From NCBI GenBank assembly GCA_025351925.1, contig JANXVC010000337.1, forward strand, positions 1-48,683: DNA of 48,683 nucleotides. The letters run 5' to 3'. Under the pieces are notes generated by a model, which worked only from the letters and a program-made list of their open reading frames with translations, was not told the origin of the DNA and ran no database searches. The position numbers and the translations under genes are program-made. The number at the start of each line of letters is the position of its first letter. Position 1 is the first letter of the stretch. Positions 1-48,567 of this stretch are shown here, in pieces. The DNA is from Rhodospirillales bacterium. GTDB lineage: Bacteria; Pseudomonadota; Alphaproteobacteria; Acetobacterales; Acetobacteraceae.

Positions 1-973
1 CCCCAGCGGCTCCGGGAAGTCGGTGGCACTTCGGGTCATCGCCGGGTTCGAGACGCCCGACGCCGGCGATGTCCGGGCCGACGGCGGGTCGGTGCTCGGG
101 CTGGCGCCGCACCGGCGCGGGATCGGCTTCGTGTTCCAGTCCTTCGCGCTGTTTCCGCATCTCAGCGTCGCCGATAACGTCGCCTTCGGCCTGCGCCACC
201 GCGACCAGGGCGCCGTCACCAACGCAGCCGAGGTCGGCCACCGCGTCGCGGCCGCCCTGGCGCTCGTTGGGCTGGAAGACCTGGGCGCCCGCCTGCCGTC
301 GGAAATCTCCGGCGGGCAGAAACAGCGCGTGGCCTTCGCGCGCACGCTGATCGCCGAACCGCGCATCGTGCTGCTCGACGAGCCGCTCGGCGCGCTCGAC
401 GCTCGGTTGCGCGAGCGCATGATGGTCGAGCTGCGCCGCCTGCATGAACGCTCCGGCGCGACTTTTTTGCACGTCACCGGCAACGAGCAGGAGGCACTGG
501 CGATGGGCACCCGCGTCGCGGTGCTTGGGCAGGGCCGCATCGCCCAAATCGACGCGCCAGACCGCCTGATCGACGCGCCGGCGACGGCGGACGTGGCGCG
601 GCTGTTAAACTGCTACAACGTGCTGGCCGGAGCGGTCAGGCGCGGATCGTTCGGAGCTGACGGTATGTCGCTGCCGCTGGCGGCCGCATCAAGCGAGGGA
701 CCCGCCGCCTACTGCATCCGCTCCGACCACATCGGCATCGCCGACCCGGCGACGCAGCCAGCGCCGGGCCGGGTCCGCATCGACGCGCGTTTCCTCGCCA
801 GCGAGTATTCCGGCGCCCGCCTTACCGGCCTGTTCGCGGTGCAGCCAGGGCGTCCGTTCGAGGTCGAATACTACCTCGGCCACCGCGCCCCGCCGTCCTT
901 CGAACGCGACCAGCGCTACGCCCTGGAATGGCCGGCCAGCTCCGCCCTGCTGTTCGCGGGTCTTCAGGCGTGA
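1..973 (+). CDS. ABC transporter ATP-binding protein, PotA-like (5' end outside window)
   Basis: The open frame runs in from the left edge. The codons before the first GTG (23) already encode the Walker A motif (PSGSGKS), so the true start lies upstream. Also visible are the Q-loop ([10 protein letters not shown]), signature (ISGGQKQR), Walker B (IVLLDEP) and a C-terminal TOBE-like region. This is the nucleotide-binding subunit of a spermidine/putrescine/iron-type importer that powers the two permeases directly downstream. The switch region is odd: where the family has VTHDQEEAL this protein has VTGNEQEAL, with a Gly codon at 479-481 replacing the H-loop His, and the following ADR is GTR. A second, canonical ATPase sits at 5508. 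The stop overlaps the GTG of the next gene (GTGA). The family is clear; the substrate is unknown. Confidence 0.93.
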
Positions 974-1887
974 GCGCCGCGCCGCAAAGTCTCCCCGGCA
1001 ATGAGGCCCTGTTCGCGACGCATCCCCCACCCCGCGCCCGCCGCCGCGACTGGGTCACCGCGGCGCTGCTGGCTCCCGGCGTAATCTGGATGACGCTGTT
1101 CCTCGTCGCCCCGCTGCTGATGATGCTATACGTCAGCTTCTGGACCCAGACCACCTTCGCCATCAAGCCAGTGCTGACGCTCAGCAGTTGGAAGTTTTTC
1201 TTCTCGAGCGCCACCTACCTCGACGCGTTGTGGACGACGCTCCGCATCTGGCTGATCACCCTCGCGGCCACGCTGGCGATCGGCTACCCCGTGGCGCTGT
1301 ACATCGGCCTGTTCGTGCGCAACAAGACGATCCAGACCATCCTGCTCGTCGCCTGCGTCGTGCCGTTTTGGACCTCGTTCCTGATCCGCGTCGTCGCCTG
1401 GCGCCCGATGCTGGGGACCGAGGGCGCGGTCAACATCCTGCTCGCCCGCCTGCATTTGATCGACCATCCCATCAGCGTCCTGCTGTTCACCGAGCTCAGC
1501 GTCATCATCGGCATGACGCAGATCTACGTCGTGTTCATGGTCGGCCCTATCGCCTTCATGCTGTCCCGCGTCGAGCCGAGCCTGATTGAGGCGGCGCGCG
1601 ACCTCGGTGCCGGCTGGGCGCGCATCCTGCGCACCGTGATCCTGCCGCTCAGCCTGCCCGGCGTCGTGGTCGGCGCGATCTTCGTGTCCGTCATGGTGCT
1701 CGGCGAGTTCGCAACCCCGGCGGCGCTGTCCGGCCGCAAGGTCAACCTGCTGGGCAACATCATCGTAACGCAAGTCGGCTCGTTGAAATGGGCGTTCGCC
1801 GCGGTGATCGGCGTCGTGCTGACGCTTATCATGGCCGTCGTCGTCGCTGGGCTGCTGCGCTTCGTCGATCTGCGGCGAGAGCTGTAA
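970..1887 (+). CDS. ABC transporter permease, PotB-like
   Basis: Inner-membrane permease of about 305 residues. The GTG at 970 overlaps the stop of the upstream ATPase (GTGA) and is preferred over the in-frame ATG at 928, which lies inside that gene. After a short Arg-rich N-terminus there are about six hydrophobic segments. The cytoplasmic EAA loop is intact ([20 protein letters not shown], starting near 1588) and is the contact for the ATPase. The protein ends with LRRDLRREL-like basic residues, typical of this family. Its stop overlaps the next start (TAATG), showing translational coupling with the second permease. It belongs to the BPD_transp_1 superfamily of polyamine/iron/sulfonate importers; the substrate cannot be told from sequence. 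Confidence 0.93.
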
Positions 1888-2729
1888 TGCAGAGCCCGCT
1901 CCGCTGGCCGCTGCTGGCCTTCATGGTGCTGTTCCTCATCTTCCTGTATGCACCGCTTGGCGTGCTTGGCGTGCTCAGCTTCCAGTCGGGGCCGGAGGGC
2001 GGGCCGCAATTCCCCATCGTCGAATGGTCCACCTACTGGTATCGCCATCTGTTCGGCCAGGTGCCCCCGACCCGCGTCGCGCCGCTGCCGATCGGGCCGT
2101 CGCTGCTGCGCTCGCTGGCATTGGCCGGCATGACGATGGTGACCTCGACCGTGCTCGGCGTGCTCGCGGCCCAGGCGTTCCGCCGCCGCTTCCGCTTCTC
2201 CGGCGCAGTGTTTTACCTCATCGTGCTCGGCATGATCGTGCCCGGCGTGCTGGTCGGCCTGGGCATCGCGCTGCTCGCCAACGCGCTGGGGTTGGAACGC
2301 GCCTGGTGGGGCACCTCGTTTGTCGCGCACGTGCTCTACACGTTCCCCTTCGCCTTTCTCGTCATGCTGGCGATCTTCAACCGGTTCGACCGTTCGGTTG
2401 AGGAGGCCGCCTGGAGCCTCGGCGTCACGCCGCTCCGCACTTTCCGCACCATCACCCTGCCGCTGATTTTCCCCGGCGTGCTCAGCGCCATGCTGTTCGC
2501 CTTCACCCTCAGCTACGACGAGTTCTCCCGCACGCTGTTCACCACCGGCGGCGCGCAGACCCTGCCGCTGACCATCTACGGGACCTTCGCCGTCGAGATC
2601 CATCCCAACATCTTCGCCTTCGGCGTGCTGACGACGCTGTTCTCCTTCAGCCTGCTGACGGTTTACGGCATCCTGATGACGCTCAGCGTGCGCCGGGGCC
2701 GGCGCGTGGCGATGCAGGAGGGCATCTGA
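1887..2729 (+). CDS. ABC transporter permease, PotC-like
   Basis: Second permease of the first ABC set, 280 residues. The ATG at 1887 shares a base with the stop of the preceding permease; the longer reading from 1788 would overlap that gene. The protein opens with a membrane anchor (PLLAFMVLFLIFLYAPLGV) and carries the EAA loop (VEEAAWSLGVTPLRTFRTI) followed by LPLIFPGVLSA. A motif typical of PotC is the SYDEF stretch after the loop. It is expected to pair with the permease at 970 as a heterodimeric channel. The stop codon directly abuts the ATG of the downstream SDR gene, so transport and oxidoreductase genes are in one transcript. Confidence 0.93.
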   Translation: MQSPLRWPLLAFMVLFLIFLYAPLGVLGVLSFQSGPEGGPQFPIVEWSTYWYRHLFGQVPPTRVAPLPIGPSLLRSLALAGMTMVTSTVLGVLAAQAFRRRFRFSGAVFYLIVLGMIVPGVLVGLGIALLANALGLERAWWGTSFVAHVLYTFPFAFLVMLAIFNRFDRSVEEAAWSLGVTPLRTFRTITLPLIFPGVLSAMLFAFTLSYDEFSRTLFTTGGAQTLPLTIYGTFAVEIHPNIFAFGVLTTLFSFSLLTVYGILMTLSVRRGRRVAMQEGI

Positions 2730-3473
2730 ATGCGTGAGCTTGCCGAGCACAACGCGGTCATCACCGGCGCAGCAAGCGGCATCGGTCGGGCGATTGCGGC
2801 GCTTCTCGCCGGCGCCGGCGCGCAGGTGCTGATCGCCGACCTCGACGGCGCGCGGGCCGATGAGGCGGCGCACATGCTGCGTCAGTCCGGCGGCCGGGTC
2901 GCGGCTGTTGCCACGGACGTTTCGGACCCTGCGGACGTCGAGGCGATGTTTGCCACGGCCGAGCGGTCAGGATCGGTCACGCTGCTGGTCAATAACGCCG
3001 GCCATGTCCACCAATCGCCATTCGAGGCGCTGGAGATCGCCGACTTCGACCGCATGATCGCCGTGCATTTGCGCGGCAACTTCCTTTGCGCCCGACGCGC
3101 CCTCCCGCCCATGCTGGCGGCCAATGAAGGCGTCATCGTCAACATCGCCTCGCAGCTCGGGCAGATCGGCGGCGTCCAGCTCGCGCACTACGCCGCCGCC
3201 AAGGCCGGGATCATCGGCATGACCAAGTCGCTGGCGCGCGAGGTGAGCGGGCGCGGCGTGCGGGTGAACGCCGTGGCGCCGGGTCCGATCGACACCGAGC
3301 TCGTGCAGAACCTGTCGCCGGAGTGGCGCCGCGCCAAGCTCGCCGAGCTGCCGCTGGGCCGGTTCGGCACGCCGGAGGACGTTGCGGAGACGGTCGCCTT
3401 CCTCGCCTCGCCGGCTGCGCGGATCTATGTCGGCCAGACGCTCGGGCCGAATTCGGGAGACGTCATGCTGTGA
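2730..3473 (+). CDS. SDR-family oxidoreductase (first of a pair)
   Basis: Classical short-chain dehydrogenase/reductase of 247 residues, a soluble cytoplasmic NAD(P)-dependent enzyme. The Rossmann motif TGAASGIG is near residue 12, NNAG near residue 89, and the catalytic Ser and YxxxK lie in NIASQLG and HYAAAK. DLDG after the second strand suggests NAD preference (inference). The C-terminus has the GQTL...NSG pattern common to FabG-like SDRs. The ATG follows the permease stop with no gap, and the stop overlaps the GTG of a second SDR. Being inside an importer operon suggests it oxidises or reduces an imported alcohol, sugar acid or ring-derived intermediate; the substrate is not predictable. 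Confidence 0.93.
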   Translation: MRELAEHNAVITGAASGIGRAIAALLAGAGAQVLIADLDGARADEAAHMLRQSGGRVAAVATDVSDPADVEAMFATAERSGSVTLLVNNAGHVHQSPFEALEIADFDRMIAVHLRGNFLCARRALPPMLAANEGVIVNIASQLGQIGGVQLAHYAAAKAGIIGMTKSLAREVSGRGVRVNAVAPGPIDTELVQNLSPEWRRAKLAELPLGRFGTPEDVAETVAFLASPAARIYVGQTLGPNSGDVML

Positions 3474-4231
3474 GCAAACCCCCAAGCGTGCTGATCACCG
3501 GCGCCGGCATCGGCATCGGCCGCGCTACCGCGCACGCCTTCGCCCGCGCCGGCTATGCGGTGATGGTCACCGACGTGCTGGAGAACGAAGGCCGCGCTGT
3601 GGTTGCTTCCATCAAGGCATCGGGCGGCACTGCGGATTTCCGCACCGTCGATGTCACCAGCACCGCGGCGGTGGACCAGACGGTCGCCGACGCGGAGGCC
3701 ATCCACGGCCGGCTCGACTGCGTGGTCGCCAATGCCGGCATCGCCCACCGCGTGCCGCTGGATCAGATGTCCGACGCGAAATGGGACGAGACCATGGACA
3801 TCGACCTGAAGGGCGTCATGCGCGTGGTGCGCGCGGCGGCGCCGGGCATGGCGCGGCACGGCGTGGGCGCCGTTGTCGCGCTGTCCTCCATCATGGGCGT
3901 CGCCTATGGCTGGAGCGAGCATGCGCACTACTCGGCGGCGAAGGCCGGCGTGGTCGGGCTGGTGCGCGGCCTGGCGGTGGAGCTCGCATCCGGCGGCATC
4001 CGGGTCAACGGCATCGCCCCCGGCTACATCCGCACGGCGCAGGCACTGTCGCGCGAGCACTCGCTGGGTCCCGAGGGATTGGAGCAGGCTGCGTCGTTCA
4101 TCCCGATGGGCCGGGTCGGCGAGCCGGAGGACGTGGCCGACGTGGCGCTATTCCTCGCCTCCGGCGCCGCGCGCTACATTACCGGGCAGGTCATCGTGGT
4201 CGATGGCGGGCTGCTCGTTGGACGCTATTGA
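3470..4231 (+). CDS. SDR-family oxidoreductase (second of a pair)
   Basis: Second classical SDR, 253 residues from the GTG at 3470, which overlaps the stop of the preceding SDR (GTGA). The longer frame from 3323 would lie within that gene. Motifs are TGAGIGIG (cofactor), VANAG in place of the usual NNAG, a catalytic Ser in LSSIMG, YSAAK (Tyr/Lys pair) and the C-terminal GQVIVVDGG. It is clearly divergent from its neighbour, so this is a pair of different enzymes rather than a recent duplication. A 34-bp gap separates it from the Tat-exported binding protein downstream. Substrate unknown. Confidence 0.93.
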   Translation: MSKPPSVLITGAGIGIGRATAHAFARAGYAVMVTDVLENEGRAVVASIKASGGTADFRTVDVTSTAAVDQTVADAEAIHGRLDCVVANAGIAHRVPLDQMSDAKWDETMDIDLKGVMRVVRAAAPGMARHGVGAVVALSSIMGVAYGWSEHAHYSAAKAGVVGLVRGLAVELASGGIRVNGIAPGYIRTAQALSREHSLGPEGLEQAASFIPMGRVGEPEDVADVALFLASGAARYITGQVIVVDGGLLVGRY

Positions 4232-4265
4232 AGCTGCATTTTCCTCGACCTGAAGGATCGATTGC

Positions 4266-5492
4266 ATGAGCGCATTTTCACGCCGAGATTTCACCCGGGC
4301 CGGCGCCGCCACTGCCGCGTTGGCGCTCGGGGGCGGCACGCCGTTCCTCGCCTCCGGACGCGCCTGGGCGCAGGCGAAGTCGCTGGGCAGCGAGCAGTTG
4401 CGCACCATTGGCCTGTCCGTGACGGTGCAGGACCGCATTCTGGCCGAATTCAAGCAAGCCTCCAAGGTCGGCGGCACCAGCGGCAGCGCCGCGACCTTCC
4501 CGGACGCGCAGACCAAGATCCTCTCGGGATCGACCGATTTCGACTGCTGGGAGGCGATCGGCGAGCGGCTGCCGGCGGTGGTGCAAACCAACCGGATCAC
4601 GCCGATCCCGGTGGGTGCGATGAAGAACTGGACCTCGATCCGCGACACCTTCACCAAGCCCGATCCGAAATGGCCGGCCAGCGCGCAGATCGTCGGCCAG
4701 ATCTGGAAGGACCCCGGCCAGACGCAGCTTTGGCTGGTGCCAACGGTCTATAATTATGATTCCGTCGGCTATAACCCGGACGTGGTCAGCGCCGAGGAGG
4801 CGAATAGCTGGACCGCGATCTTCGACCGGAAGTGGCGCGGCCGGTCAGGCATCAACACCGATCCGCTGATCGCCATTGGCCAGGCGATCATGGCGATGAA
4901 CTCGCTCGGCTTGTCGGCGGTGACGAACCCCGGCAATCCGAGCGAGGCCGAGATCAACGAGGCGACGAAGTTCCTAATCTCGAAGAAAAAGGACGGCCAG
5001 TTCCGCGCCCTGTGGAACGATTTCGGCGAGCTGGTGAATCTGCTCGCGTCCGGCGAGATGGTGGTGTGCGACGCCTGGCAGCCGGCGGTCATGGCGGTAA
5101 AGGCGCAAGGCCACGCCTGCAAATATGCGGTGCCGAAGGAGGGCTACCGCGCCTGGTCGATCGGCGTCACCTCGATCACCGGCACGCCCAATCCGGAGGC
5201 GGTTGTCGCCTACGCCGACTATTGGCTCTCGGGTCAGCCCGGCATCACCGTCTCGGAACAGGGCTACTACTCGCCGACGACGACGATCAAGGAAGTGATG
5301 CCGGCGGCCAAGTATGCCTTCTGGTACGAGGGCAAGCCATGGTCCGGCCCGGCCGAGCGCGGCATCAAGGAGGGCGACCTGCGCGACGGCGGCTCGCTCG
5401 CGGAACGCGCGGCGCACGTCGCCTATTGGCACCAGTGGCCGGACGCCTATGACCACCTGACGCAGCGCTGGGACGAGTTCCTGAACGCCTGA
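4266..5492 (+). CDS. ABC transporter substrate-binding protein, Tat-exported, PotD-like
   Basis: Periplasmic solute-binding protein of 408 residues. The N-terminus carries a twin-arginine motif (SRRDFTR), an Ala/Gly-rich hydrophobic stretch and a cleavage-like site after SGRAWAQA, so it should be exported folded through Tat. The mature part resembles family 1/8 extracellular binding proteins of the polyamine/iron type (NYDSVGYNPD, then CDAWQPAV and ISVTSITGTPNPEA-like segments). GAAGGATC lies before the ATG. It sits between the two SDRs and an ATPase and is presumably the receptor for the permeases at 970 and 1887. The ligand is not deducible from sequence. Confidence 0.9.
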   Translation: MSAFSRRDFTRAGAATAALALGGGTPFLASGRAWAQAKSLGSEQLRTIGLSVTVQDRILAEFKQASKVGGTSGSAATFPDAQTKILSGSTDFDCWEAIGERLPAVVQTNRITPIPVGAMKNWTSIRDTFTKPDPKWPASAQIVGQIWKDPGQTQLWLVPTVYNYDSVGYNPDVVSAEEANSWTAIFDRKWRGRSGINTDPLIAIGQAIMAMNSLGLSAVTNPGNPSEAEINEATKFLISKKKDGQFRALWNDFGELVNLLASGEMVVCDAWQPAVMAVKAQGHACKYAVPKEGYRAWSIGVTSITGTPNPEAVVAYADYWLSGQPGITVSEQGYYSPTTTIKEVMPAAKYAFWYEGKPWSGPAERGIKEGDLRDGGSLAERAAHVAYWHQWPDAYDHLTQRWDEFLNA

Positions 5493-5507
5493 GCCGGGGC
5501 CGCCGCG

Positions 5508-6599
5508 TTGCGGTACGACCTGGAGCTGGTGAAGCTCGGCAAGACGTTCCCGAACGGCACGCCGGCGGTGGCCGAGTTCGACCTGCAGGTGCAAAAGGGC
5601 GAGTTCGTGTCGTTCGTCGGCCCGTCCGGCTGCGGCAAGACCACGACGTTGCGCATGATCGCCGGCTTCGAGGCGGTCAGCATCGGCGACATCCTGATCC
5701 AGGGCCGCAACGTCGGCGACATGCCGCCGGAGCGGCGCCCAACCTCGACCATCTTCCAGAATTTCGCCCTGTTCCCGCATATGACGGTGCGGCAGAACAT
5801 TGAATACGGCCTGCGGGTGAAGCGGCTGCGTGGCGCAGAACGCAGCCGCCGGGTTGCCGGGATCATGGAGCGGCTGGGACTGGGCCCGATCGCCGACGAA
5901 CGCACGACGGCGCTTTCGGGCGGCCAAAGACAGCGCGTGGCGCTGGCGCGCGGGCTGGTGGTGGAGCCGGATATTTTGCTGTTGGACGAGCCGCTCGGCG
6001 CGCTGGACGCCAACCTGCGCAAGTCGGTCCAGCACGAGCTGAAGCTGCTGCAGCGCAATGTCGGGATCACCTTCGTCTTCGTGACCCACGCGCAGTCCGA
6101 GGCGCTGACGCTATCCGACCGCATCGTCGTGATGAACCGCGGCCGGGCCGAGCAGGTCAGCACGCCGCATGAGCTCTACACGCGGCCGCAAAGCGCCTTC
6201 GTGGCACGCTTCATCGGCCGCAATATCATTCTCGATGGCCGGATGCTCGGCTGCGCGGACGGCATCGCCACCGTCGAAACGCCATCGGGCGTCCTACGCG
6301 GCAGGGTCAACGGTCCAACGCCATCACCGGGCGCGCCGGCAGTGCTGTCAATTCCGTCTGAGGCGGTAGATGTCGTGGACGCAGCGCAGGCGCCCATAGA
6401 CGCCGACCGGCTGGTCGGGCGCTTGGCAAGCCGTCTGCTGATCGGCACGGCCGTGCAGCTCGGCATCACGTTGGGCGACGGCCAGGAGGCTACGGTGGAA
6501 AGCCACGCCAGCCGCTATGCGCCAGGCTGGGCGCCGGAATCGGTGGCGCTGGTCTGGGACCCGGCCGATGCGACTGTCCTGGCCGCGCCGACGCCATAA
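5508..6599 (+). CDS. ABC transporter ATP-binding protein, PotA-like (canonical)
   Basis: Nucleotide-binding subunit of 363 residues with a full motif set: Walker A GPSGCGKT (38-45), Q-loop IFQNFALFPHM, signature LSGGQ (136-140), Walker B ILLLDE (156-161) and H-loop His194 (FVTHAQSEAL). A TOBE-like C-terminal region follows. TTG at 5508 is the most upstream start that fits after the binding-protein stop; the ribosome site is weak, and GTG at 5529 is an alternative. It is the second ATPase near the first permease pair, and unlike the one at the left edge it has all catalytic residues, so the two may work as a heterodimer. A 23-bp gap leads to hyuA. Confidence 0.9.
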   Translation: MRYDLELVKLGKTFPNGTPAVAEFDLQVQKGEFVSFVGPSGCGKTTTLRMIAGFEAVSIGDILIQGRNVGDMPPERRPTSTIFQNFALFPHMTVRQNIEYGLRVKRLRGAERSRRVAGIMERLGLGPIADERTTALSGGQRQRVALARGLVVEPDILLLDEPLGALDANLRKSVQHELKLLQRNVGITFVFVTHAQSEALTLSDRIVVMNRGRAEQVSTPHELYTRPQSAFVARFIGRNIILDGRMLGCADGIATVETPSGVLRGRVNGPTPSPGAPAVLSIPSEAVDVVDAAQAPIDADRLVGRLASRLLIGTAVQLGITLGDGQEATVESHASRYAPGWAPESVALVWDPADATVLAAPTP

Positions 6600-6622
6600 G
6601 CCACTTGCAATAAGGAAAAAAC

Positions 6623-8752
6623 ATGCCGGAGACGATGGTGCGGACGGGGCAACGGGGGCAAGTGCGGGTGGGCGTCGATGTCGGGGGATCGTTCACCGAC
6701 TTCGTGCTGGACGACCACCGCGGCGGCGGTCAGCGCGTCGTGGTGCACAAGGTGCCGAGCACGCCGCATGACCAGTCGATCGCCGTCGTGGAGGGGGTGC
6801 TCGGGCTGTGCCGCCGGGCCGACGTGGCGCCGTCCGACATCAACGTGCTGTTCCACGGCACCACGGTCGCCACCAACATGGTGATCGAACGCAAGGGCGC
6901 CGAAGTCGGGATGATCACCACACGCGGCTTCCGCGACATCCTGCACATGGCCCGGCACAAGCGCCCGCATAACTTCTCCCTGCAGTTCGACGTGCCGTGG
7001 CAGAGCGCGCCGCTGATCAAGCGCCGCAACCGGCTGGTGGTGAGCGAGCGCATCCTGCCGCCGGACGGCCGCATCGAGACGCCACTCGATGAGGCGGCGG
7101 TACGGGCGGCGGCGGAGCTGTTCCGCAAGCGCGGCCTGGACGCGGTGGTGATCGCCTTCCTGTTCTCGTTCCTGAACGACGTGCATGAGCGGCGCGCCCG
7201 CGATATTGTCTGTGAGGTGATGCCGGACGCCTACGTCTGCACCTCGTCCGAGGTCGTGAACGCGATCCGCGAATACGAACGCTTCTCCACCGTCGCGATG
7301 AACGCCTATATCGGCCCGCACACCTCGGCCTACCTGCGTCAGCTCGAGGGCCGGCTGCGCGGGGCCGGCATCGACGCGCCGGTGCGGATCATGCAGTCCA
7401 ACGGCGGCATCGCCACCGTGGCGAACTCCATCGCGCGCCCAGTGGGCCTGCTGCTGTCGGGACCAGCCGGCGGCGTGATCGGCGGGCGCGCGACAGGCGA
7501 GGCCTGCGCGGTCGCCAATGTCATCACCATCGACATCGGCGGCACGTCTGCCGACATCAGCGTGATCCGCGACGGCCAGCTCACCATCAAGAACCCGCGC
7601 GACACCCAAGTGGCGCTGCTGCCGGTGCTGGTGCCGATGCTGGACATCGACGCGATCGGCGCGGGCGGCGGCTCGATCGCCTATCTGGACGCCGGCGGCG
7701 CCTTCCGCGTCGGGCCGCGCTCGGCGGGGGCGGCGCCGGGTCCCGCGTGCTACGGCCGCGGCGGGACGGAGCCGACGGTGACGGACGCCCAGGTCGTGCT
7801 CGGCCGGCTCGACCCTGACCGCTTCCTGGGCGGCGATCTGCAGATCGACTCGGAGCTGGCGCGGCGTGCCATCGAGACGCATCTGGCGGTGCCGCTCGGC
7901 CTGTCGGTCACGGATGCGGCGCTAGGCGTGCTGCGCATCATCAATCACACGATGGCGCTGGCGATCAACGCCAACTCGGTCGCCAAAGGCATCGACCCCC
8001 GCGGTTTCACCCTCATGGCGTTCGGCGGCGCCGGGCCGCTGCACGGCGTGGCGCTGGGCGAGCTGATCTCGGCGCGCGACGTCATCTCGCCGCTGCACCC
8101 CGGCATCACGGCCGCCATCGGCCTGCTGGTGACCGAATTGCAGTACGAATACACCCGGTCGGTGCTGATCGTGCTGAGCACAGCTGGCGCGGCCGAGCTG
8201 GCGCGGCTGGAGGCAGCCTTCACCGAGCTCGCCGCCGAGGGAGCCGCACAGCTCGACAGCGACGGCATTCCAATGGACCAGCGCAGCTATCAGCGCATCA
8301 TGGAGTGCCGCTACGTCGGCCAGGGTTTTGAATTACGGGCGCGGGTCCCGGACGGGCCGATCGACGCCGAGTGCCTGCAGGCGGTGATCCGCGACCTCTA
8401 TGACGTGCACAAGCAAGTCTATGGCCACGCCTTTGACGACCAGGCCGTGGAGGCGGTGACGCTGCGGCTGATCGCCCGCGGCGCCACGGAGTCGCTCAGC
8501 CTGCCCGCCCTCGCCCATGGCGGTCGCGGCGACCCGGCCGACGCGCTGATGTACACACGCGACACCGTGTTCGACGACGGCCGGGCGCTGCCGACCCCGC
8601 GTTATGGCCGCGACCGCCTGCTGGCTGAGGACACCGTGAGCGGCCCGGCCGTCATCACGCAGCACAACAGCACGACCATCGTCCCGCCCGGCTATGTCGC
8701 CCGAGTGCTCTCGCACGGCGACATCGTGATCGCGAAGGAGGCCCGCACATGA
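6623..8752 (+). CDS. hyuA: Hydantoinase/oxoprolinase subunit A (N-methylhydantoinase A type)
   Basis: Protein of 709 residues, cytoplasmic. It has the N-terminal Hydant_A_N ATPase-like fold (VGVDVGGSFTDFVL near residue 16, then GTTVATNMVIERKGA) and the Hydantoinase_A core (TIDIGGTSADISVIRDG; GAGGGSIAYLD; PGPACYGRGG). In this family the A subunit binds ATP and the A/B complex couples ATP hydrolysis to opening of a cyclic amide such as N-methylhydantoin, hydantoin or 5-oxoproline, or carboxylates a ketone in the acetone/acetophenone carboxylase branch. AAGGAAAAA lies just before the ATG. The stop overlaps the hyuB start (ATGA). The neighbouring hydroxyisourate hydrolase fusion favours a ring-opening role, which is inference. 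Confidence 0.92.
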   Translation: MPETMVRTGQRGQVRVGVDVGGSFTDFVLDDHRGGGQRVVVHKVPSTPHDQSIAVVEGVLGLCRRADVAPSDINVLFHGTTVATNMVIERKGAEVGMITTRGFRDILHMARHKRPHNFSLQFDVPWQSAPLIKRRNRLVVSERILPPDGRIETPLDEAAVRAAAELFRKRGLDAVVIAFLFSFLNDVHERRARDIVCEVMPDAYVCTSSEVVNAIREYERFSTVAMNAYIGPHTSAYLRQLEGRLRGAGIDAPVRIMQSNGGIATVANSIARPVGLLLSGPAGGVIGGRATGEACAVANVITIDIGGTSADISVIRDGQLTIKNPRDTQVALLPVLVPMLDIDAIGAGGGSIAYLDAGGAFRVGPRSAGAAPGPACYGRGGTEPTVTDAQVVLGRLDPDRFLGGDLQIDSELARRAIETHLAVPLGLSVTDAALGVLRIINHTMALAINANSVAKGIDPRGFTLMAFGGAGPLHGVALGELISARDVISPLHPGITAAIGLLVTELQYEYTRSVLIVLSTAGAAELARLEAAFTELAAEGAAQLDSDGIPMDQRSYQRIMECRYVGQGFELRARVPDGPIDAECLQAVIRDLYDVHKQVYGHAFDDQAVEAVTLRLIARGATESLSLPALAHGGRGDPADALMYTRDTVFDDGRALPTPRYGRDRLLAEDTVSGPAVITQHNSTTIVPPGYVARVLSHGDIVIAKEART

Positions 8753-10533
8753 CCGAAACTGTCGATCCCATCAGCCTGCAGGTCATCGGCGGCGCGCTGC
8801 ACGCCATCGCCGAGCAGATGGGCACCGTGCTGTATCGCATGTCGTACTCCTCGATCATCCGCGAGAGCCAGGACCTCGGCGCCGGCCTGTTCGACCGCGA
8901 CTTCAATACCCTGGCCGAGAGCGATTCCACGCCGATGCATATCGGCTCGCTGCCGGGCTATTTGCGCGGCATCGAGAAGTCGGTGCCGCTCGATGACTGG
9001 AAGCCCGGCGATCTCGTGATCCACAACCATCCGTATTTCGGCGCCAGCCACTCGCCGGACATCGCCATCGTCATGCCGGTGTTCCACGAGGGCGCGCTGG
9101 TGGGTTTTTCCGCCAACACCGCGCACCACGTCGATATCGGCGCCGCCACCCCCGGCCTCATCATCGACGTGCCCGACATGTACGCCGAGGGCATGCTGTT
9201 CAACGGGCTGAAATTGTATGAGGAGGGACGTCGCAACGAGGCGCTGTGGCGCTACATCCAGGGCAACACGCGGGTGCCGGGCCTGGTGATGGGCGACCTT
9301 GCGGCGCAGATCGCCTCGGCGGAGCTCGGCGTGCGGCGCTTCCAGGAGCTGCTGACCACCTACGGGACCGAGACGGTGATGCAGGCGACGCGCCAGCTCA
9401 TGGACTACTCCGAGGCCATGCTGCGGCGCGAGCTGGCCAAAATTCCGGACGGCGAGTACGTGGCCGAGGGCTTCATGGACGACGATGGCCGCAACCGCGG
9501 GCAGCACCTGCCGGTGAAGGTGACGGTGCGCATCACCGGCGACAGCGTCGAGGTGGACCTGACCGGCTCCTCGGCCCAGGTGCCCACCGCGTTCAACGTG
9601 CCATTCGAGGGCTCGACCAAGGTCGCCTGCTTCTTCGCCTTCCGCGCCTTGTTGCTCGACACCTACACCAACCCCGACCCGGTGCCCGCCAATGAGGGCT
9701 CGTTCCGCCCGGTGAAGGTCACGGCCCCGCGCGGCTCCATCTACAACCCGATCGCCCCAGCGGCGGCGGAGGCGCGGTTCACCCAGATCCAGCGGGTCGT
9801 TGACCTCATCATCAAGGCGCTGGCCCCGGTGCTGCCGGACCGCTGCACCGCCGGCAACGCCGCCACGCTGTCGTTCGCGGCCTATTCCGGCGTGCGCCGG
9901 TCCGGCGACTATTGGGTGTTCCTCGAGGTGAACGAAGCGGCGATGGGCGGACGCCCGGCCTCCGACGGGCCGGACACGGTCGAGGAGCTGATGCGCAACA
10001 CCCGCAACAACCCGCTCGAGGACCTCGGCATGCACCTGCCGCTGATCTGCGACCGCTACGAGATGCGGGACGACGTGTTTCCCGGTGCCGGCAAGTTCCG
10101 CGGCGGCATGGGTGTCGTGAAGTCGCAGCGCTTCCTCGAGCCCGGCTCCATCACCCACGAGGCCGACCGCCATCACGACCGCCCCTGGGGCATCTTCGGC
10201 GGACAGGAGGGCCATGGCGGCAAGGTGGAGATCCACAATGCGCGCAACCCGGCTGCGGTGACCCAGCACCCGGCCAAGTTCTCCGGCCTGCTGACGGCGG
10301 CGGGCGACGTGATGAGCTATTTGTCGCCGTGCGGCGGCGGCTACGGCGACCCGCTGGAGCGCGACCCGGGCAAGGTGCTCGACGACATCCTGGACGACTA
10401 CATCACCCCGGAACATGCCGCCGATGCCTACGGCGTTGTGGTCATGGCGGTGGATGATGGCTACGGCTGGGCGCTGGACCCTGCGGCAACCACCGCCTTG
10501 CGCGCGGAGGTCCGTAGCCGGGCATCGACGTAG
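8749..10533 (+). CDS. hyuB: Hydantoinase/oxoprolinase subunit B (N-methylhydantoinase B type)
   Basis: Protein of 594 residues, the usual length of the B subunit. Hydantoinase_B signatures are RMSYSSIIRESQDLGAGLFD near residue 27, GDLVIHNHPYFGASHSPD and NTAHHVDIGAATPG (family metal/active-site region). The Gly-rich end GGGYGDPLERDP is typical of complete members. ATG at 8749 overlaps the hyuA stop, so A and B are probably made in equal amounts as a complex. A 38-bp gap leads to the second ABC ATPase. The pair belongs to the ATP-dependent HyuA/HyuB family; the exact substrate (hydantoin, N-methylhydantoin, oxoproline, allantoin-like) is not decided by sequence. Confidence 0.92.
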   Translation: MTETVDPISLQVIGGALHAIAEQMGTVLYRMSYSSIIRESQDLGAGLFDRDFNTLAESDSTPMHIGSLPGYLRGIEKSVPLDDWKPGDLVIHNHPYFGASHSPDIAIVMPVFHEGALVGFSANTAHHVDIGAATPGLIIDVPDMYAEGMLFNGLKLYEEGRRNEALWRYIQGNTRVPGLVMGDLAAQIASAELGVRRFQELLTTYGTETVMQATRQLMDYSEAMLRRELAKIPDGEYVAEGFMDDDGRNRGQHLPVKVTVRITGDSVEVDLTGSSAQVPTAFNVPFEGSTKVACFFAFRALLLDTYTNPDPVPANEGSFRPVKVTAPRGSIYNPIAPAAAEARFTQIQRVVDLIIKALAPVLPDRCTAGNAATLSFAAYSGVRRSGDYWVFLEVNEAAMGGRPASDGPDTVEELMRNTRNNPLEDLGMHLPLICDRYEMRDDVFPGAGKFRGGMGVVKSQRFLEPGSITHEADRHHDRPWGIFGGQEGHGGKVEIHNARNPAAVTQHPAKFSGLLTAAGDVMSYLSPCGGGYGDPLERDPGKVLDDILDDYITPEHAADAYGVVVMAVDDGYGWALDPAATTALRAEVRSRAST

Positions 10534-10571
10534 GGCGTCACGCTGGCACGTGGCTTGCTGCAATCGGCGCA

Positions 10572-11636
10572 ATGAACGCGCTCATACAAGCCGGGCAGGC
10601 CTTGCTGCTGGACCGCATCACCCACCGCTACGCCGGGCACACAACGGTGGACGCCGTCACGCTGGACATCGAAGGCGGAGAGCTGATTGCGCTGCTCGGC
10701 CCCTCCGGCTGCGGCAAGACGACCCTGGTGCGCATCATGGCTGGACTGGTGCGGCAAACCGCCGGGCGGGTCATGGTGGCAGGGCGGCCGATCGACGCGC
10801 TGCCGCCCAACCGCCGCCCAGTCGGCATCGTGTTCCAGAGCTACGCGCTGTTTCCGCACATGAGCGTCGCCGACAACGTCGCCTATGGCCTGGCAGCCCG
10901 CGGCACTGCCCGCGCGGCCCAGCGGACCGGGGCCGCGCGGATGCTGGAGCTGGTGCAGCTTGGGCACCTCGCGGACCGTCTGCCGCGCGCGCTGTCCGGC
11001 GGGCAGCAGCAGCGGGTGGCGCTGGCCCGGGCGCTGGCGGTGCAGCCGGCGATCCTGCTGCTGGACGAGCCGTTCGCCGCACTCGACAAGAATCTGCGCC
11101 TCGACATGCAGATCGAGATCAAACGCATCCAGCGCCTGGCCGGGACCACGACCATCCTAGTCACGCACGACCAAGAGGAGGCGCTGTCGATGGCCGACCG
11201 CGTCGCCGTGCTGTCCGCCGGCCGGCTGGAGCAGTTCGCGCCGCCGACCGAGGTGTACGACCAGCCCGCCAGCCTGTTCGTCAACAGCTTCGTCGGCCAG
11301 GTCAACCGGCTGCAGGGCACGCTCGCGGAGGACGGCGCGGTTCGGCTGGACGCTGGCGGCATAATTTCGGTCCGCACGGCTGCGCTGCCGCCGGGCAGTC
11401 GTGTGACGGTGTGCCTGCGTCCAGAGCATCTGCGGTTCGCCGCAGACTGCATCCCCGCGACGCTGGAGCTCGCCTTGCCGCTCGGGCCGACCGTGGTGCA
11501 CGAGGTGCGCTTCGGCGACGGCAGCACCGCCAAGATCACCGAACCGCGGGAGGCCGGGGCCGCGCCGCGCCAGCCCGGCACGCAGGTCCACGTCGCCACC
11601 GCCGGCCCCGGGATGGCCTCCGCATTCGCTGCATGA
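10572..11636 (+). CDS. ABC transporter ATP-binding protein, PotA-like (second set)
   Basis: Nucleotide-binding subunit of 354 residues with complete motifs: Walker A GPSGCGKT (43-50), Q-loop VFQSYALFPHMS, LSGGQ (141-145), Walker B ILLLDE (161-166) and H-loop His199 in VTHDQEEAL. A TOBE domain fills the C-terminal third. It opens a second Pot-type transporter set followed by a binding protein and a single permease. The reading frame that crosses it from about 10415 is only an upstream extension of the next gene. Its stop overlaps an ATG (11633) in the next gene's frame, though that gene more likely starts at 11648. Confidence 0.92.
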   Translation: MNALIQAGQALLLDRITHRYAGHTTVDAVTLDIEGGELIALLGPSGCGKTTLVRIMAGLVRQTAGRVMVAGRPIDALPPNRRPVGIVFQSYALFPHMSVADNVAYGLAARGTARAAQRTGAARMLELVQLGHLADRLPRALSGGQQQRVALARALAVQPAILLLDEPFAALDKNLRLDMQIEIKRIQRLAGTTTILVTHDQEEALSMADRVAVLSAGRLEQFAPPTEVYDQPASLFVNSFVGQVNRLQGTLAEDGAVRLDAGGIISVRTAALPPGSRVTVCLRPEHLRFAADCIPATLELALPLGPTVVHEVRFGDGSTAKITEPREAGAAPRQPGTQVHVATAGPGMASAFAA

Positions 11637-11647
11637 AGGAACGCCCC

Positions 11648-12691
11648 ATGCTGAACCGTCGCGGCCTGATGACCACCGCACTGACCATTGGCGCGATGCA
11701 CGCCTTCCCCGGGCTCACCTGGGCACAGGCGCGCCCGCTGGTGTTCGCGACCTCTACCGGCAGTTGGGAGGAGGCGCACAAGGCCGTCTTGGTTCCAGCC
11801 TTCCGCCGCGTGACCAACAATGCGTCGATCGTGCTGGACCCCATGCTGTCGGTGGACCAGATCGCCAAGGTCTCGGCCGCGCGCGCCAGTCCGCCGATCG
11901 ACGTCATGCTGCATGATCCCGGCCCGGGGTTGCAGGCCATCGCCGCTGGCCTCGTCGAGCCCTACCCCGTCGAGCGCAGCGCCCACTACAAGGACCTGAT
12001 CCCCGTAGCCCAGGAGCCGATGGGCCCGGCTGCGTTCTTCCAGGTCGTTGGGCTCACCTACAACCCGGAGACGGTGAAGACGCCGCCAACCAGCTGGGCC
12101 GACCTATGGGACCCGGTTTATAAGAACCGCGTCGGCATCACCAACCTCGCCAGCACGCTCGGCACCGGTTTTCTGGTGGAGGTCGCGCGGATGCATGGCG
12201 GGTCCGAGAGCAACGTGGAGCCGGGCTTTGCCGCGCTGCAGAAGCTGAAGCTGAACCTTTCTGCCGTCGCCGCCAATCCCGGCGCGCTGGCGGCGCTGTA
12301 TCAGCAGGGCCAGGTCGATATCTCGCCGGGCAACTACAACGCGATCCAAATCCTGAAGGCGCAGGGCGTGCCGGTGGAGTTCGTGGCGCCGAAGGAGAGC
12401 GCCATCGCCTTCCGCACGACGATGCACATCACCAAGAACTCGTCCAACGCGGAGCTGGCGTTTAAGCTGATCGAGGCCGCCCTGTCGCCGGAGGTGCAGG
12501 GGGCGTTGATAACCTCGCCCTATTTCGTCGTGCCGACCAACACCCGGGTCAAGCTCGCCGGAGAGGTCGCGAAGACCCTGGTCGCCGACCAGGATGCAAT
12601 GCGCAGCCGCTTCGTGTTCCAGGACTGGGTCAAGATCAACGAGCAGCGGGCGTCCTGGCTGGAGCGGTTCAACCGGGAGATGCGGGCGTGA
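11648..12691 (+). CDS. ABC transporter substrate-binding protein, Tat-exported, PotD-like
   Basis: Periplasmic binding protein of 347 residues. ATG at 11648 is chosen because AAGGAA lies 6-7 bases upstream and gives a compact Tat signal (NRRGLM, hydrophobic stretch, cleavage-like WAQA near residue 28). ATG at 11633 is the alternative and overlaps the ATPase stop. The mature part looks like the spermidine/putrescine-binding family (PPIDVMLHDPGPG, FFQVVGLTYNPE, PPTSWADLWDP). It is distinct from the binding protein at 4266, so the operon carries two receptors. Only 6 bp separate its stop from the next GTG. Ligand unknown. Confidence 0.9.
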   Translation: MLNRRGLMTTALTIGAMHAFPGLTWAQARPLVFATSTGSWEEAHKAVLVPAFRRVTNNASIVLDPMLSVDQIAKVSAARASPPIDVMLHDPGPGLQAIAAGLVEPYPVERSAHYKDLIPVAQEPMGPAAFFQVVGLTYNPETVKTPPTSWADLWDPVYKNRVGITNLASTLGTGFLVEVARMHGGSESNVEPGFAALQKLKLNLSAVAANPGALAALYQQGQVDISPGNYNAIQILKAQGVPVEFVAPKESAIAFRTTMHITKNSSNAELAFKLIEAALSPEVQGALITSPYFVVPTNTRVKLAGEVAKTLVADQDAMRSRFVFQDWVKINEQRASWLERFNREMRA

Positions 12692-12697
12692 CGACCG

Positions 12698-13816
12698 GTG
12701 GCTAGGGTGCTGCCCGACGCCGCGGGGTTCGATCCGCGGCTGGCCTGGCCGCTGGGGGCCTTCCTGGCCCTGCTGTTCGCGCTGCCGCTCGCGCTGCTGG
12801 CCGGGCTGAGCCTGCAGACGCCGGCCGGATTGGGCCTCAGCCAATACGCCAAGTTCCTCGGCGACGCGTTCAGCCTGGGCGTGCTGGGCGGCACCATGCG
12901 GCTGGGGGCGGAGGTCACGCTGGCCTGCCTGGTGCTGGGCCTGCCGCTGGCATGGCTGCACGCCCGGTCGTCGCCCACGATGCGCGGGCTGCTGATGCTC
13001 GTCGTGCTGCTGCCGCTGCTGACCAGCGTCGTCGTGCGCACCTTCGCCTGGATCGTGGTGCTGGGCCGCCAGGACATCGTGAACTCGGCGCTGCTGGGGA
13101 TGGGCGTCATCGATACGCCGCTGCGGCTGCTCTACACCGAGGGGGGCGTAGTCGCAGCGCTGACCCAGGTGCAGATGCCGCTGATGGTGCTGCAGCAGGC
13201 GCTGGCGCTGGGTGACATGCCGTTCGCCTCCGCGATGTCGGTCATCTTTCTAGTCGCGGTCCTGCTGGTGGTGCTGCTCGGCGTGGCGGGCGCGTTGGGC
13301 CTCGCGCGGTCGTGCCAGCTGTCGGCCCGGGCGCTGGACGGGCTGTTCATGGCGCCGCTGATCCTGCCGGCGCTGGCCTTCGGGCTGGCGGCGCTCATGC
13401 TGTTCAGCGCCGTCGGCCTGCCGGTGTCGCCGCTGACGCTGACCCTGGGCCACACGGTGGTCTGCGTGCCCTTCATGGTGCGCAACACCGTGGCGTCGCT
13501 GCAGCAGCTCGACCCCAGCCTGCTGGAGGGCTCGGCCACGCTGGGGGCGTCGCGATTCTACACGTTCCGCCGGGTCGTGCTACCGTTGGTGCGGCCCGGC
13601 ATCCTGGCGGGCGGGTTCATCTGCTTCATGGCCAGTTTCGACAACATCCCGGTCTCCCTGTTCCTCCGCGACGCCGCGACGGACATGCTGCCGATCCGCA
13701 TGTGGCAGGACCTGGACGTCACCATCGCGGCGCTCTCCGGCGTGCTGATCGTAGCGACGGTCGCGGCGATGCTGCTGATGGAGCGGCTAGCTGGGCTGTC
13801 CCGGCGGATCACATGA
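12698..13816 (+). CDS. Chimeric ABC permease: PotB-like N-terminus joined to PotC-like C-terminus
   Basis: Single permease frame of 372 residues, GTG start 6 bp after the binding-protein stop. Residues 1-164 follow a PotB-type permease up to TQVQMPLMVL. The next piece, QQALALGDMPFASAMS with its hydrophobic tail (166-193), matches the extreme C-terminus of PotB-type proteins, so about 75 residues holding the first EAA loop are absent. From about 194 (GVAGALGLARS) the sequence follows the last two-thirds of a PotC-type permease with one EAA loop (LLEGSATLGASRFYTFRRVV, 275-294). No other permease fits before the next gene at 13813. It could be a working fused permease, a homodimer-forming one, or a decayed pair kept in frame by two deletions. 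The stop overlaps the next ATG (ATGA). Confidence 0.82.
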   Translation: MARVLPDAAGFDPRLAWPLGAFLALLFALPLALLAGLSLQTPAGLGLSQYAKFLGDAFSLGVLGGTMRLGAEVTLACLVLGLPLAWLHARSSPTMRGLLMLVVLLPLLTSVVVRTFAWIVVLGRQDIVNSALLGMGVIDTPLRLLYTEGGVVAALTQVQMPLMVLQQALALGDMPFASAMSVIFLVAVLLVVLLGVAGALGLARSCQLSARALDGLFMAPLILPALAFGLAALMLFSAVGLPVSPLTLTLGHTVVCVPFMVRNTVASLQQLDPSLLEGSATLGASRFYTFRRVVLPLVRPGILAGGFICFMASFDNIPVSLFLRDAATDMLPIRMWQDLDVTIAALSGVLIVATVAAMLLMERLAGLSRRIT

Positions 13817-14691
13817 TCACGCTGGATACGCTGAACGCTGCTGACACCGCGGGCTTCGTGGCCGCACTGGGCGCGGTGTTCGAGGATGCGCCCTGGGTGG
13901 CCGAGCGCGCCGCCGCAGCCCGGCCGTTCCCCACCGTCACCGCCCTGCACGCCGCGATGTTCGCCGTCGTGCAGGGTGCCGCACCGGACGAGCAGGTCCG
14001 CTTCCTGGCCGGCCATCCCGACCTGGCCGGCGCTGCCGCACGCCGGCAGGCGATGGGCGCGTTCTCGACCAGCGAGCAGGCGGCACTGGGGCTGGACCGG
14101 CTGGATGACGCGCGATTCCCCGGGTTCGAGGCGATGAACCAGGAGTACCGCGCCCGCTTCGGCATTCCGTTCATCCTGTGTGTCCGCCGTCACACCCGCA
14201 CCTCCGTCCTGGCCTGCTTTGCCCAGCGTCTGCGAAGCGTGCCGGAGACCGAGCGTACGGCGGCATTGGAAGAAGTATTCCTGATCACCCGCCTGCGCAT
14301 CGCTGGCCTGGTGGAGGGGCCAGGAATGCCGCAGGTCGCCGGCCGGCTATCCACCCACGTGCTGAACACCGCCCTGGCCCGGCCCGCCGCCGGCGTCGAG
14401 GTGGAGCTGTTCGAGATCGACGAGGACGCGGCGGTGAAGCTTGCCCACGGGGTCACCAACTCCGACGGCCGGACCGACACGCCGCTGCTGCCAGCGGGAC
14501 CGCTGCGGATCGGCCAGTACGAGATGCGGTTCCGCGTCGGCGCCTATTTTGCCGGGCTTGGCCTGCCGGTGGCCGAGCCGCCCTTCTTCGACGTGATCCC
14601 TGTCCGCTTCGGCATCGCGGAGCCGGAGGCGCACTACCATGTGCCGCTGCTGGTCAGCCCGGGGACCTATACGACCTATCGCGGAAGCTGA
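13813..14691 (+). CDS. Fused OHCU decarboxylase - 5-hydroxyisourate hydrolase (allantoin synthase type)
   Basis: Bifunctional protein of 292 residues for the two steps after urate oxidation: hydrolysis of 5-hydroxyisourate to OHCU, then decarboxylation of OHCU to S-allantoin. Residues 1-165 are the UraD-like decarboxylase, with His68 in AGHPDLAG and FPGFEAMNQEYRARFGIPF. Residues about 175-292 are the transthyretin-like UraH hydrolase: His182 (LSTHVLN), Arg220 (SDGRTD), His276 and the terminal YRGS. The order decarboxylase-hydrolase is the one known in plant allantoin synthase. ATG at 13813 overlaps the permease stop; a longer reading from 13312 lies inside that gene. No urate oxidase, allantoinase or allantoicase is in the window. 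It ties the operon to purine/urate-ring breakdown. Confidence 0.93.
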   Translation: MITLDTLNAADTAGFVAALGAVFEDAPWVAERAAAARPFPTVTALHAAMFAVVQGAAPDEQVRFLAGHPDLAGAAARRQAMGAFSTSEQAALGLDRLDDARFPGFEAMNQEYRARFGIPFILCVRRHTRTSVLACFAQRLRSVPETERTAALEEVFLITRLRIAGLVEGPGMPQVAGRLSTHVLNTALARPAAGVEVELFEIDEDAAVKLAHGVTNSDGRTDTPLLPAGPLRIGQYEMRFRVGAYFAGLGLPVAEPPFFDVIPVRFGIAEPEAHYHVPLLVSPGTYTTYRGS

Positions 14692-14755
14692 TCCGGCCAT
14701 TGCGTCCCGAACGCTTCCTGACGAACAGTGGCCCCCTGCCCCGGAGCACTCAGCG

Positions 14756-46867: not shown

Positions 46868-46941
46868 TCTAACTTGTTGAAGCTACTTTAGGTTGGGTTG
46901 CCAGCCGTAGGCATCGCCAAAATACCTGAGGTTGCGGATTG

Positions 46942-48567
46942 ATGACGGCGAAGACGTGGAACGGATCGGTCGGTGCGTTTGCATCCGGCGATAATTGGTT
47001 GCCGCAGGTTGCCCCGTTGTTTGGTGACACGGCCATCATCACGGCGGGTACGGTGGCCGCGGCAGGAGTGCTGCCGGGTTCCTTAGCGATCATTCTGAAC
47101 CCACCGGCCAACGCAAGCGCGAACCTGGTGCTGTCGGACGGGACGCTGCTGGCGTCCTCACGATTGGACATCAAGGGGCTCGCGACATTACGGCTGCGTG
47201 GCACCGTTATCAATCAGGGCGTGATCTCAGCGATTGGCAGCCCGGGTTTGGTGTCCATTCAGATTGGTGCGATGCAGGAGGGCGTCGCCGCCAATTTCAT
47301 CAACGCCGGGTCGATTGTGGTGAGCGACACGGCGGTTCAGATCGTGCCCGGCGGCAATTTGGGTGACCAACTGCAGAATGACGGCGTGATTTCGGTTCGC
47401 AGCTCGCGTGGCACGGCGCAGCTGGCCTACATAGCGGCAAGCATCATCGGCACGGGCACTGTGTTGCTGGGCGAGTCTGTCACGTTCGAGACTGCATCGG
47501 CGGTGGGCGCCGGGCAGAATTTCGTGTTTGAACACGGAAATGGCGGCGCCACGACGCTGCGGATGGGCGCTGGAACGCTGTTCCGTGGCGTGATCACTGG
47601 GTTCGGAACGGACGATACCATCCAAGTCACGAGCGGCAGATGGGACAAGGTCGCCTATGCGCCGACCGACGCAGACGGCGGTGTGTTGACGATGTCGCTG
47701 GGCGACGTCGTGGTGAAGGCAACGGTGTTCAAAGGGTCATACATGACCTCCAGCTTTCAGTTGCAGGAGTCGATCCCGTTCGGCAGCAGCCAGGCTGCTA
47801 CGACCATAACAATCAATGATCCGCTGTTCGACGCGGCCTTCTATCTTCGGCGCAACCCGGACGTGGTGGCGGCCAGGCTCGATGCCTACCAGCATTACAT
47901 GATCTATGGCTGGCAGGAGGGGCGCGACCCAAGCCTATTGTTCTCCGATAGCAAGTATCTGGCGGCGAACCCGGATGTGCAGGCGGCTGCGCTCAACCCC
48001 TTATATCACTACGAAACCTATGGTCGGGCGGAAGGACGCGCAGCATTTCCAGCTGATCGCGCGGTGGCAGCGGATCTGCTGATCGATCCCGGCTATTACG
48101 ATCCGCAACTCGGCGCGTCCCTCATTCCGGCTGGGATTGCTGGGCAGCAGCAGGCGGCCTGGAGCTATGGCACGACAGGCTGGCAGCAGGGGCTCAACCC
48201 GGACCCGCTGTTCGACACTAAGTATTACCTGACGCAGAACCCGGATGTCAGGGCGGCCGGTGTCGATCCGCTGAAGCACTATGAGCAGTATGGCTGGCAC
48301 GAGGGCCGCAATCCTAGTCTGCTATTTTCGAGCTACAAGTACTTGGCCGCGAACCTGGACGTGACGGCGGCCATGCTCAACCCGCTTTATCACTACCTAA
48401 CATACGGTCAAAACGAGGGGCGAACCGCATTTTTAGTTGGGAATGCAGCGGCGGCCGATCTGCTTGTCGATGCCGCTTTTTATGATAAGCAGCTTGGCGC
48501 GACCATCATCCCAACCGGTTTGGCAGCCCACCAACAAGCCGCCGCGGTTTCTGCTCAACCCGGGTAG
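46942..48567 (+). CDS. Surface-type repeat protein, 3' end apparently cut by an insertion sequence
   Basis: Protein of 541 residues from ATG 46942 (TTG at 46939 adjoins it). No signal peptide; the N-terminal 280 residues are Gly, Thr and Val rich and beta-helix-like (MTAKTWNGSVGAFASGDNWL, VINQGVISAIGS, FINAGSIVVSD), as in type I-secreted or autotransporter-like adhesins. From 47821 come repeats of the kind YLAANPDV...HYxxYGxxEGR. A 128-residue module (384 bp) at 47821-48204 recurs at 48205 on, with matching ADLLIDPGYYDPQLGASLIP and ADLLVDAAFYDKQLGATIIP. The second copy diverges at about 48543, and its last residues (VSAQPG) overlap the end of a transposase-like frame on the other strand. The protein probably lost its original C-terminus. 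Confidence 0.8.
   Translation: MTAKTWNGSVGAFASGDNWLPQVAPLFGDTAIITAGTVAAAGVLPGSLAIILNPPANASANLVLSDGTLLASSRLDIKGLATLRLRGTVINQGVISAIGSPGLVSIQIGAMQEGVAANFINAGSIVVSDTAVQIVPGGNLGDQLQNDGVISVRSSRGTAQLAYIAASIIGTGTVLLGESVTFETASAVGAGQNFVFEHGNGGATTLRMGAGTLFRGVITGFGTDDTIQVTSGRWDKVAYAPTDADGGVLTMSLGDVVVKATVFKGSYMTSSFQLQESIPFGSSQAATTITINDPLFDAAFYLRRNPDVVAARLDAYQHYMIYGWQEGRDPSLLFSDSKYLAANPDVQAAALNPLYHYETYGRAEGRAAFPADRAVAADLLIDPGYYDPQLGASLIPAGIAGQQQAAWSYGTTGWQQGLNPDPLFDTKYYLTQNPDVRAAGVDPLKHYEQYGWHEGRNPSLLFSSYKYLAANLDVTAAMLNPLYHYLTYGQNEGRTAFLVGNAAAADLLVDAAFYDKQLGATIIPTGLAAHQQAAAVSAQPG
47821..48546 (+). repeat. Tandem 384-bp protein-coding module, second copy incomplete
   Basis: Each module encodes two YLxxNPDVxAA...HYxxYGxxEGR units and one ADLLxDxxxYDxQLGAxxIP unit. 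Copy 1 is 47821-48204. Copy 2 begins at 48205 with the same PLFD text and ends about 40 bp short of the expected 48588. The repeats differ at many codons, so the duplication is not very recent. Confidence 0.75.

Follow-up and report, generated by a model that had tools for sequence, protein, structure and literature searches.

A probable deletion-scarred PotB/PotC permease remnant kept in one open frame upstream of a uraD/HIUase gene

The locus described here lies in a window of 48,683 nt, a term used for the whole stretch of DNA that was analyzed, and centers on a 372-aa open frame on the forward strand at 12698-13816, which begins with GTG, ends with TGA and contains no internal stop. The partner genes of an importer are encoded beside it in the same operon, namely a PotA-like ATPase (10572-11636, +) and a PotD/PhnS-like substrate-binding protein (SBP; 11648-12691, +), both of which are intact. 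Immediately downstream, an intact bifunctional OHCU decarboxylase (UraD)/5-hydroxyisourate hydrolase (HIUase) is encoded at 13813-14691 (+), with both domains above curated cut-offs, and its start shares an ATGA overlap at 13813-13816 (+) with the stop of the 372-aa frame. The two enzymes are fused in a product of 292 aa, and a version about 70% identical at the DNA level is found elsewhere in the G001 and G003 genomes. Upstream of the ATPase, a HyuB-like subunit gene (8749-10533, +) was recognized by homology; for the HyuA/HyuB-like pair at 6623-10533, the top scores were those of caprolactamase subunits, far under the curated cut-offs. The uraD/HIUase neighborhood offers a hint that the putative substrate of the importer belongs to purine/ureide catabolism. 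The window also carries a first transporter with an SBP of its own at 4266, ATPases at 23 and 5508, and permeases at 928-1887 and 1788-2729, in both of which Pfam detects a full-length BPD_transp_1 domain.

The composition of the frame was established by alignment with relatives, and both of its halves are homologous to PotB and PotC of the E. coli PotABCD spermidine/putrescine importer (PDB 8y5f-8y5i). Residues 1-165 (12698-13192, +) derive from PotB and comprise the N-terminus, TM1-TM3 and most of TM4, with 73-77% identity to PotB of the closest intact relative over residues ~7-165 (the 73% figure refers to 163 sites). The next segment, QQALALGDMPFASAMSVIFLVAVLLVV (13194-13262, +), aligns with the end of the PotB loop P3 and TM6, such that residues 166 to ~190 correspond to the last PotB helix. 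The remainder (13272-13813, +) derives from PotC by alignment and Pfam, running from what remains of TM2 through TM6 to the C-terminus, and residues ~186/196-372 are 83-85% identical to PotC of the same relative from TM2 onward. In agreement with this order, PDB matches assign residues 46-165 to PotB and 187-357 to PotC. The initial annotation had read the frame as PotB to about residue 164, then the PotB C-terminus, then PotC, and the alignments bear this out. Its claim that a single EAA loop remains in 372 residues also holds, as the sole loop, E277-G301 (EGSATLGASRFYTFRRVVLPLVRPG; 13526-13600, +), is of PotC origin and a single BPD_transp_1 domain (PF00528) spans residues 204-360. Two complete cores with TM1-TM6 each are thus not found in this chain, since PotB TM5 with the coupling helix and PotC TM1 are absent, nor are two EAA loops, one per ATPase subunit.

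Acidisphaera sp. L21 (locus L084, the same as on contig 67 of G009) was taken as the reference for the lesions, being the closest intact relative. Its operon reads ATPase-SBP-potB (278 aa)-potC (281 aa)-uraD/HIUase and carries no deletions; it has the same gene order and ATGA overlap as the window and differs by its two full permeases, and the ancestral operon of the window would have been ATPase-SBP-permB-permC. DNA identity between the two is 76% across the ATPase-SBP-potB stretch, and three gaps of 222, about 328 and 12 nt fall within 1.1 kb. At junction 1 (13187-13193, +), 222 nt of potB are missing and a 7-bp direct repeat, GTGCTGC, occurs in the reference at both edges of the lost segment (positions 5466 and 5688); this matches the break that had been proposed near 13187. 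At junction 2 (about 13260-13275, +, approximate breakpoint), about 328 nt are missing, which removes the PotB C-terminus, the PotC start, PotC TM1, the P1 loop and the beginning of TM2. The base-level position of this junction is ambiguous, since the helices joined there resemble each other and a close relative with an intact pair is lacking. At junction 3 (about 13712-13716, +), alignment and a CTGGA repeat locate the loss of 12 nt of potC, by which LEGK is gone from WQDLEGKLDV, a motif free of gaps in 15/15 aligned PotC relatives. The repeat in the reference is TGGA, or CTGGA if CTG served in the second copy. Direct repeats at the breakpoints are therefore seen in the intact orthologue for junctions 1 and 3. 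Since 328 mod 3 equals 1, exactly the offset that separates the potB and potC frames in the reference, all three joins lie in one open frame. The two in-frame deletions of the initial annotation were thus both confirmed, but the third had been missed.

The lesions are absent from orthologues and confined to the permease gene. In fact, no window-only gaps were detected in the ATPase, SBP and uraD/HIUase genes in comparison with the reference and five to six further relatives, nor in the 3.9 kb downstream in comparison with three congeners, while one 5-nt gap was noted at the hyuA end relative to the congeneric species G002. Additionally, the start-to-start distance of the PotB-like and PotC-like pieces is 585 nt in the window and 840-1260 nt in 137/137 fetched loci carrying both, a set that includes some paralogues and a few duplicate loci, with 1106-1111 nt in most of the closest relatives. 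None of these 137 loci shares the collapse and the flanking genes lack window-only gaps, and the collapse is therefore not a matter of chance. A family search covered 398 genomes, among which 65 gave strong matches, including the window's own genome, and in none of the 64 others was the query covered by one frame. Normal pairs were found in the best 80 of 348 loci retrieved from 84,980 species genomes, and the single-chain architecture was absent also among 40 relatives. An ordinary conserved single-chain family, the finding that the initial annotation had set against its own reading, was thus sought in the family genomes and in those best 80 loci without being found. One fused frame, L023, did emerge, and its spacing is that of an ordinary full-length two-core permease. 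No intact copy exists elsewhere in the window's genome, where the best other match reaches 37% identity, and a literature search of titles and abstracts returned no account of a permease pair collapsed as at 12698-13816.

Alignment with E. coli PotABC, whose structure is known, relates the lost parts to function. The segment missing at junction 1 aligns with E. coli PotB 168-241, that is, the coupling/EAA helix including K178, TM5 and the gate, whose residues are F222, Y223, D226 and K241 (PMC11414716). The gap at junction 3 aligns with the PotC scoop loop around K223 (PMC11414716). In comparison with E. coli PotB and PotC, the frame therefore has no equivalents of PotB 168-241, the PotB C-terminus, PotC TM1 and the scoop-loop tip, and it is a single frame. 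When the 372-aa chain alone was modeled with AlphaFold (AF2), a mean pLDDT of 71.4 and a pTM of 0.65 were obtained, with residues 135-173 below 50, whereas the intact PotC of the reference, used as a control with nearly the same alignment rows, reached 88.3 and 0.81. The PotC core at residues 180-310 was modeled with a confidence of 80-96, and the 310-372/TM6 region was poor relative to the control. The best matches of the model to PDB structures had TM-scores of 0.4-0.6 with rmsd values of 12-14 Å.

A further line of evidence comes from G002, in which the same hyuA-hyuB-...-uraD/HIUase cluster is found with 86-89% identity. On its contig C292, hyuA and hyuB are 88.8% identical to window positions 7523-10534, and hyuB runs straight into the terminal ~45 nt of the permease, after which uraD begins; this stretch is 86% identical to window positions 13766-13950. 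The ATPase, the binding protein and the rest of the permease have been deleted from this locus, in a 3.2-kb deletion whose left edge is the end of hyuB and which spans the region where the window's lesions sit. No close permease or ATPase copy was found elsewhere in the G002 assembly, which is 73% complete and in which the cluster contig measures 3.2 kb. From this loss it follows that the transporter is dispensable in the genus. The permease scar itself bears a further in-frame 9-nt deletion and forms, after the hyuB stop (L185, C292, reverse complement ~3010-3075), a 12-codon mini-ORF, MLLTERPSRRIA, which ends in ATGA with uraD; the -4 ATGA overlap is accordingly common to the window, the reference and, by sequence, the G002 scar. 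Termination-reinitiation coupling requires such overlaps, and in E. coli it can be achieved with just the final 15 nt of the gene upstream (PMC10666635). The mini-ORF is possibly a relic retained for translational coupling. Within window positions 1-14700, the hyu-transporter-uraD part occurs in G000 and G002 and not at the syntenic site in G001 and G003; in the latter two the block is absent beside the syntenic hydrolase gene at 14742, and the hydrolase/M20 region from there on is 86-87% identical. By gene content, the hyu-transporter-uraD block would therefore be accessory, with its boundary at around 14.7 kb.

Bacterial pseudogenes can arise by deletions between short direct repeats, and the frame shares with such cases its repeat junctions, a dispensable gene and further loss in a relative. 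These findings make it quite probable that the frame is a deletion-scarred remnant of an ordinary PotB/PotC-type pair from a PotABCD-like importer and that the transporter is non-functional. It appears to be a gene in the course of decay and not a novel permease type, given that almost the entire transporter is gone from the corresponding site in a sister species. Short direct repeats mark two or more of the three deletions (222, about 328 and 12 nt), which may have arisen by slipped mispairing. Transport would have been lost once PotB was deprived of its ATPase-coupling helix, TM5 and gate, and PotC of its TM1 and scoop-loop tip. Unlike in usual pseudogenes of this type, every lesion in the remnant keeps the frame, probably through coupling to the next gene. 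With frame-compatible lesions, ribosomes could still reach the ATGA overlap that starts uraD/HIUase, whereas frame-breaking deletions would uncouple this gene or act as polar mutations. Selection on uraD/HIUase, through translational coupling and avoidance of polarity, and not on the permease, may thus have held the frame open. In the window and G002 together, 4/4 internal permease deletions kept the frame, an outcome expected about 1 in 81 times if random, which constitutes a small-sample hint and not proof. As decay, the process is ordinary biology, but the locus provides a snapshot of an intermediate in one species together with near-complete loss in a congener. It also suggests a possible general rule, namely that a defunct gene which precedes a useful one and is coupled to it loses sequence only in steps that keep the frame, and such erosion would escape pseudogene callers that rely on frameshifts and stops.

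The retained codons show how old such a loss could be. With 20 window-unique versus 23 reference-unique residues, no acceleration relative to the flanking genes was observed, dN/dS of the retained permease was about 0.2-0.3, as for the ATPase and SBP, and a test for relaxed selection on the remaining permease codons detected none. This absence fits a pseudogene only if the loss was recent, and it somewhat lowers the claim that the frame is one. The codons that remain have not begun to drift, so the loss of the transporter, if real, must be recent relative to the split from Acidisphaera. Normal codon constraint is expected after a recent loss and also, equally, if the protein is still under selection, and frame preservation by all deletions could equally mean a still-useful protein. 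The lack of a premature stop and the intact ATPase and SBP likewise count against decay.

An unlikely explanation is an assembly or sequencing artefact, in which the reads of an intact pair were collapsed. The assembly is a draft of 547 contigs, two junctions carry GC-rich repeats of 5-7 bp and the retained codons look normally constrained, all of which would fit such a collapse. However, repeats of 5-7 bp are shorter than usual assembler overlaps, three separate joins, each compatible with the frame, would have to be explained, and the sequence around the locus seems to be of good quality, about 7 kb of neighboring coding sequence being free of window-only gaps. Moreover, the independent congeneric assembly of G002 shows a loss at the same locus.

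It is very unlikely that the chain is a working permease which forms homodimers in the manner of ModB or MetI and in which PotB TM1-3 extend a PotC core at its N-terminus. The ATPase and SBP are intact, substitutions are not accelerated and the PotC core is the confidently modeled part. From topology, PotB TM6 and PotC TM2 share one membrane direction, so that with a hybrid helix made of the two the PotC core could insert correctly, and the EAA loop would then face the cytoplasm. The third deletion, though, lies inside the otherwise gap-free PotC motif, residues 135-173 are predicted to be disordered, the TM6 region and PDB matches are poor, the architecture is absent from all relatives examined and the transporter was discarded in G002. 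The homodimeric type I importers ModB2C2 and MetN2I2 also have a single permease gene, but their cores are complete single ones, and FbpB-type fused permeases, of which L023 is probably one, carry two EAA loops within a chain of about 500-600 aa; against ModB, MetI and FbpB, the remnant is a scarred chimera of one damaged core and part of another. It is extremely unlikely that deletions between the paralogues replaced the heterodimer of the importer by the product of one gene, a newly formed and working homodimeric mini-permease in which PotB helices 1-3 replace PotC helix 1. The initial annotation had offered a working single-chain or homodimeric permease, a dead second transporter, or one that borrows permeases. 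Among these, the dead transporter is best supported, given the damage to essential anatomy, the poor fold relative to the control and the loss in G002, and the working permease gained neither positive support nor a relative of like architecture.

Least likely of all, the ATPase and SBP at 10572-12691 would now serve the intact pair at 928-2729 or another genomic pair, as ATPase sharing between importers is known elsewhere and both transporters lie in one cluster with PotB/PotC-like permease pairs, but the two permease sets are only ~29-31% identical, the first transporter has the SBP and ATPases of its own mentioned above, and G002 lost the ATPase and SBP along with the permease. The ATPase of that first transporter at 23-973 seems to lack the Walker A part through truncation at the contig start, which falls inside the gene, and not through damage to the gene. 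Near the other contig end, a long frame at 46939-48567 contains repeats around NPLYHYxTYGxxEGR and probably encodes a repetitive surface or secreted protein.
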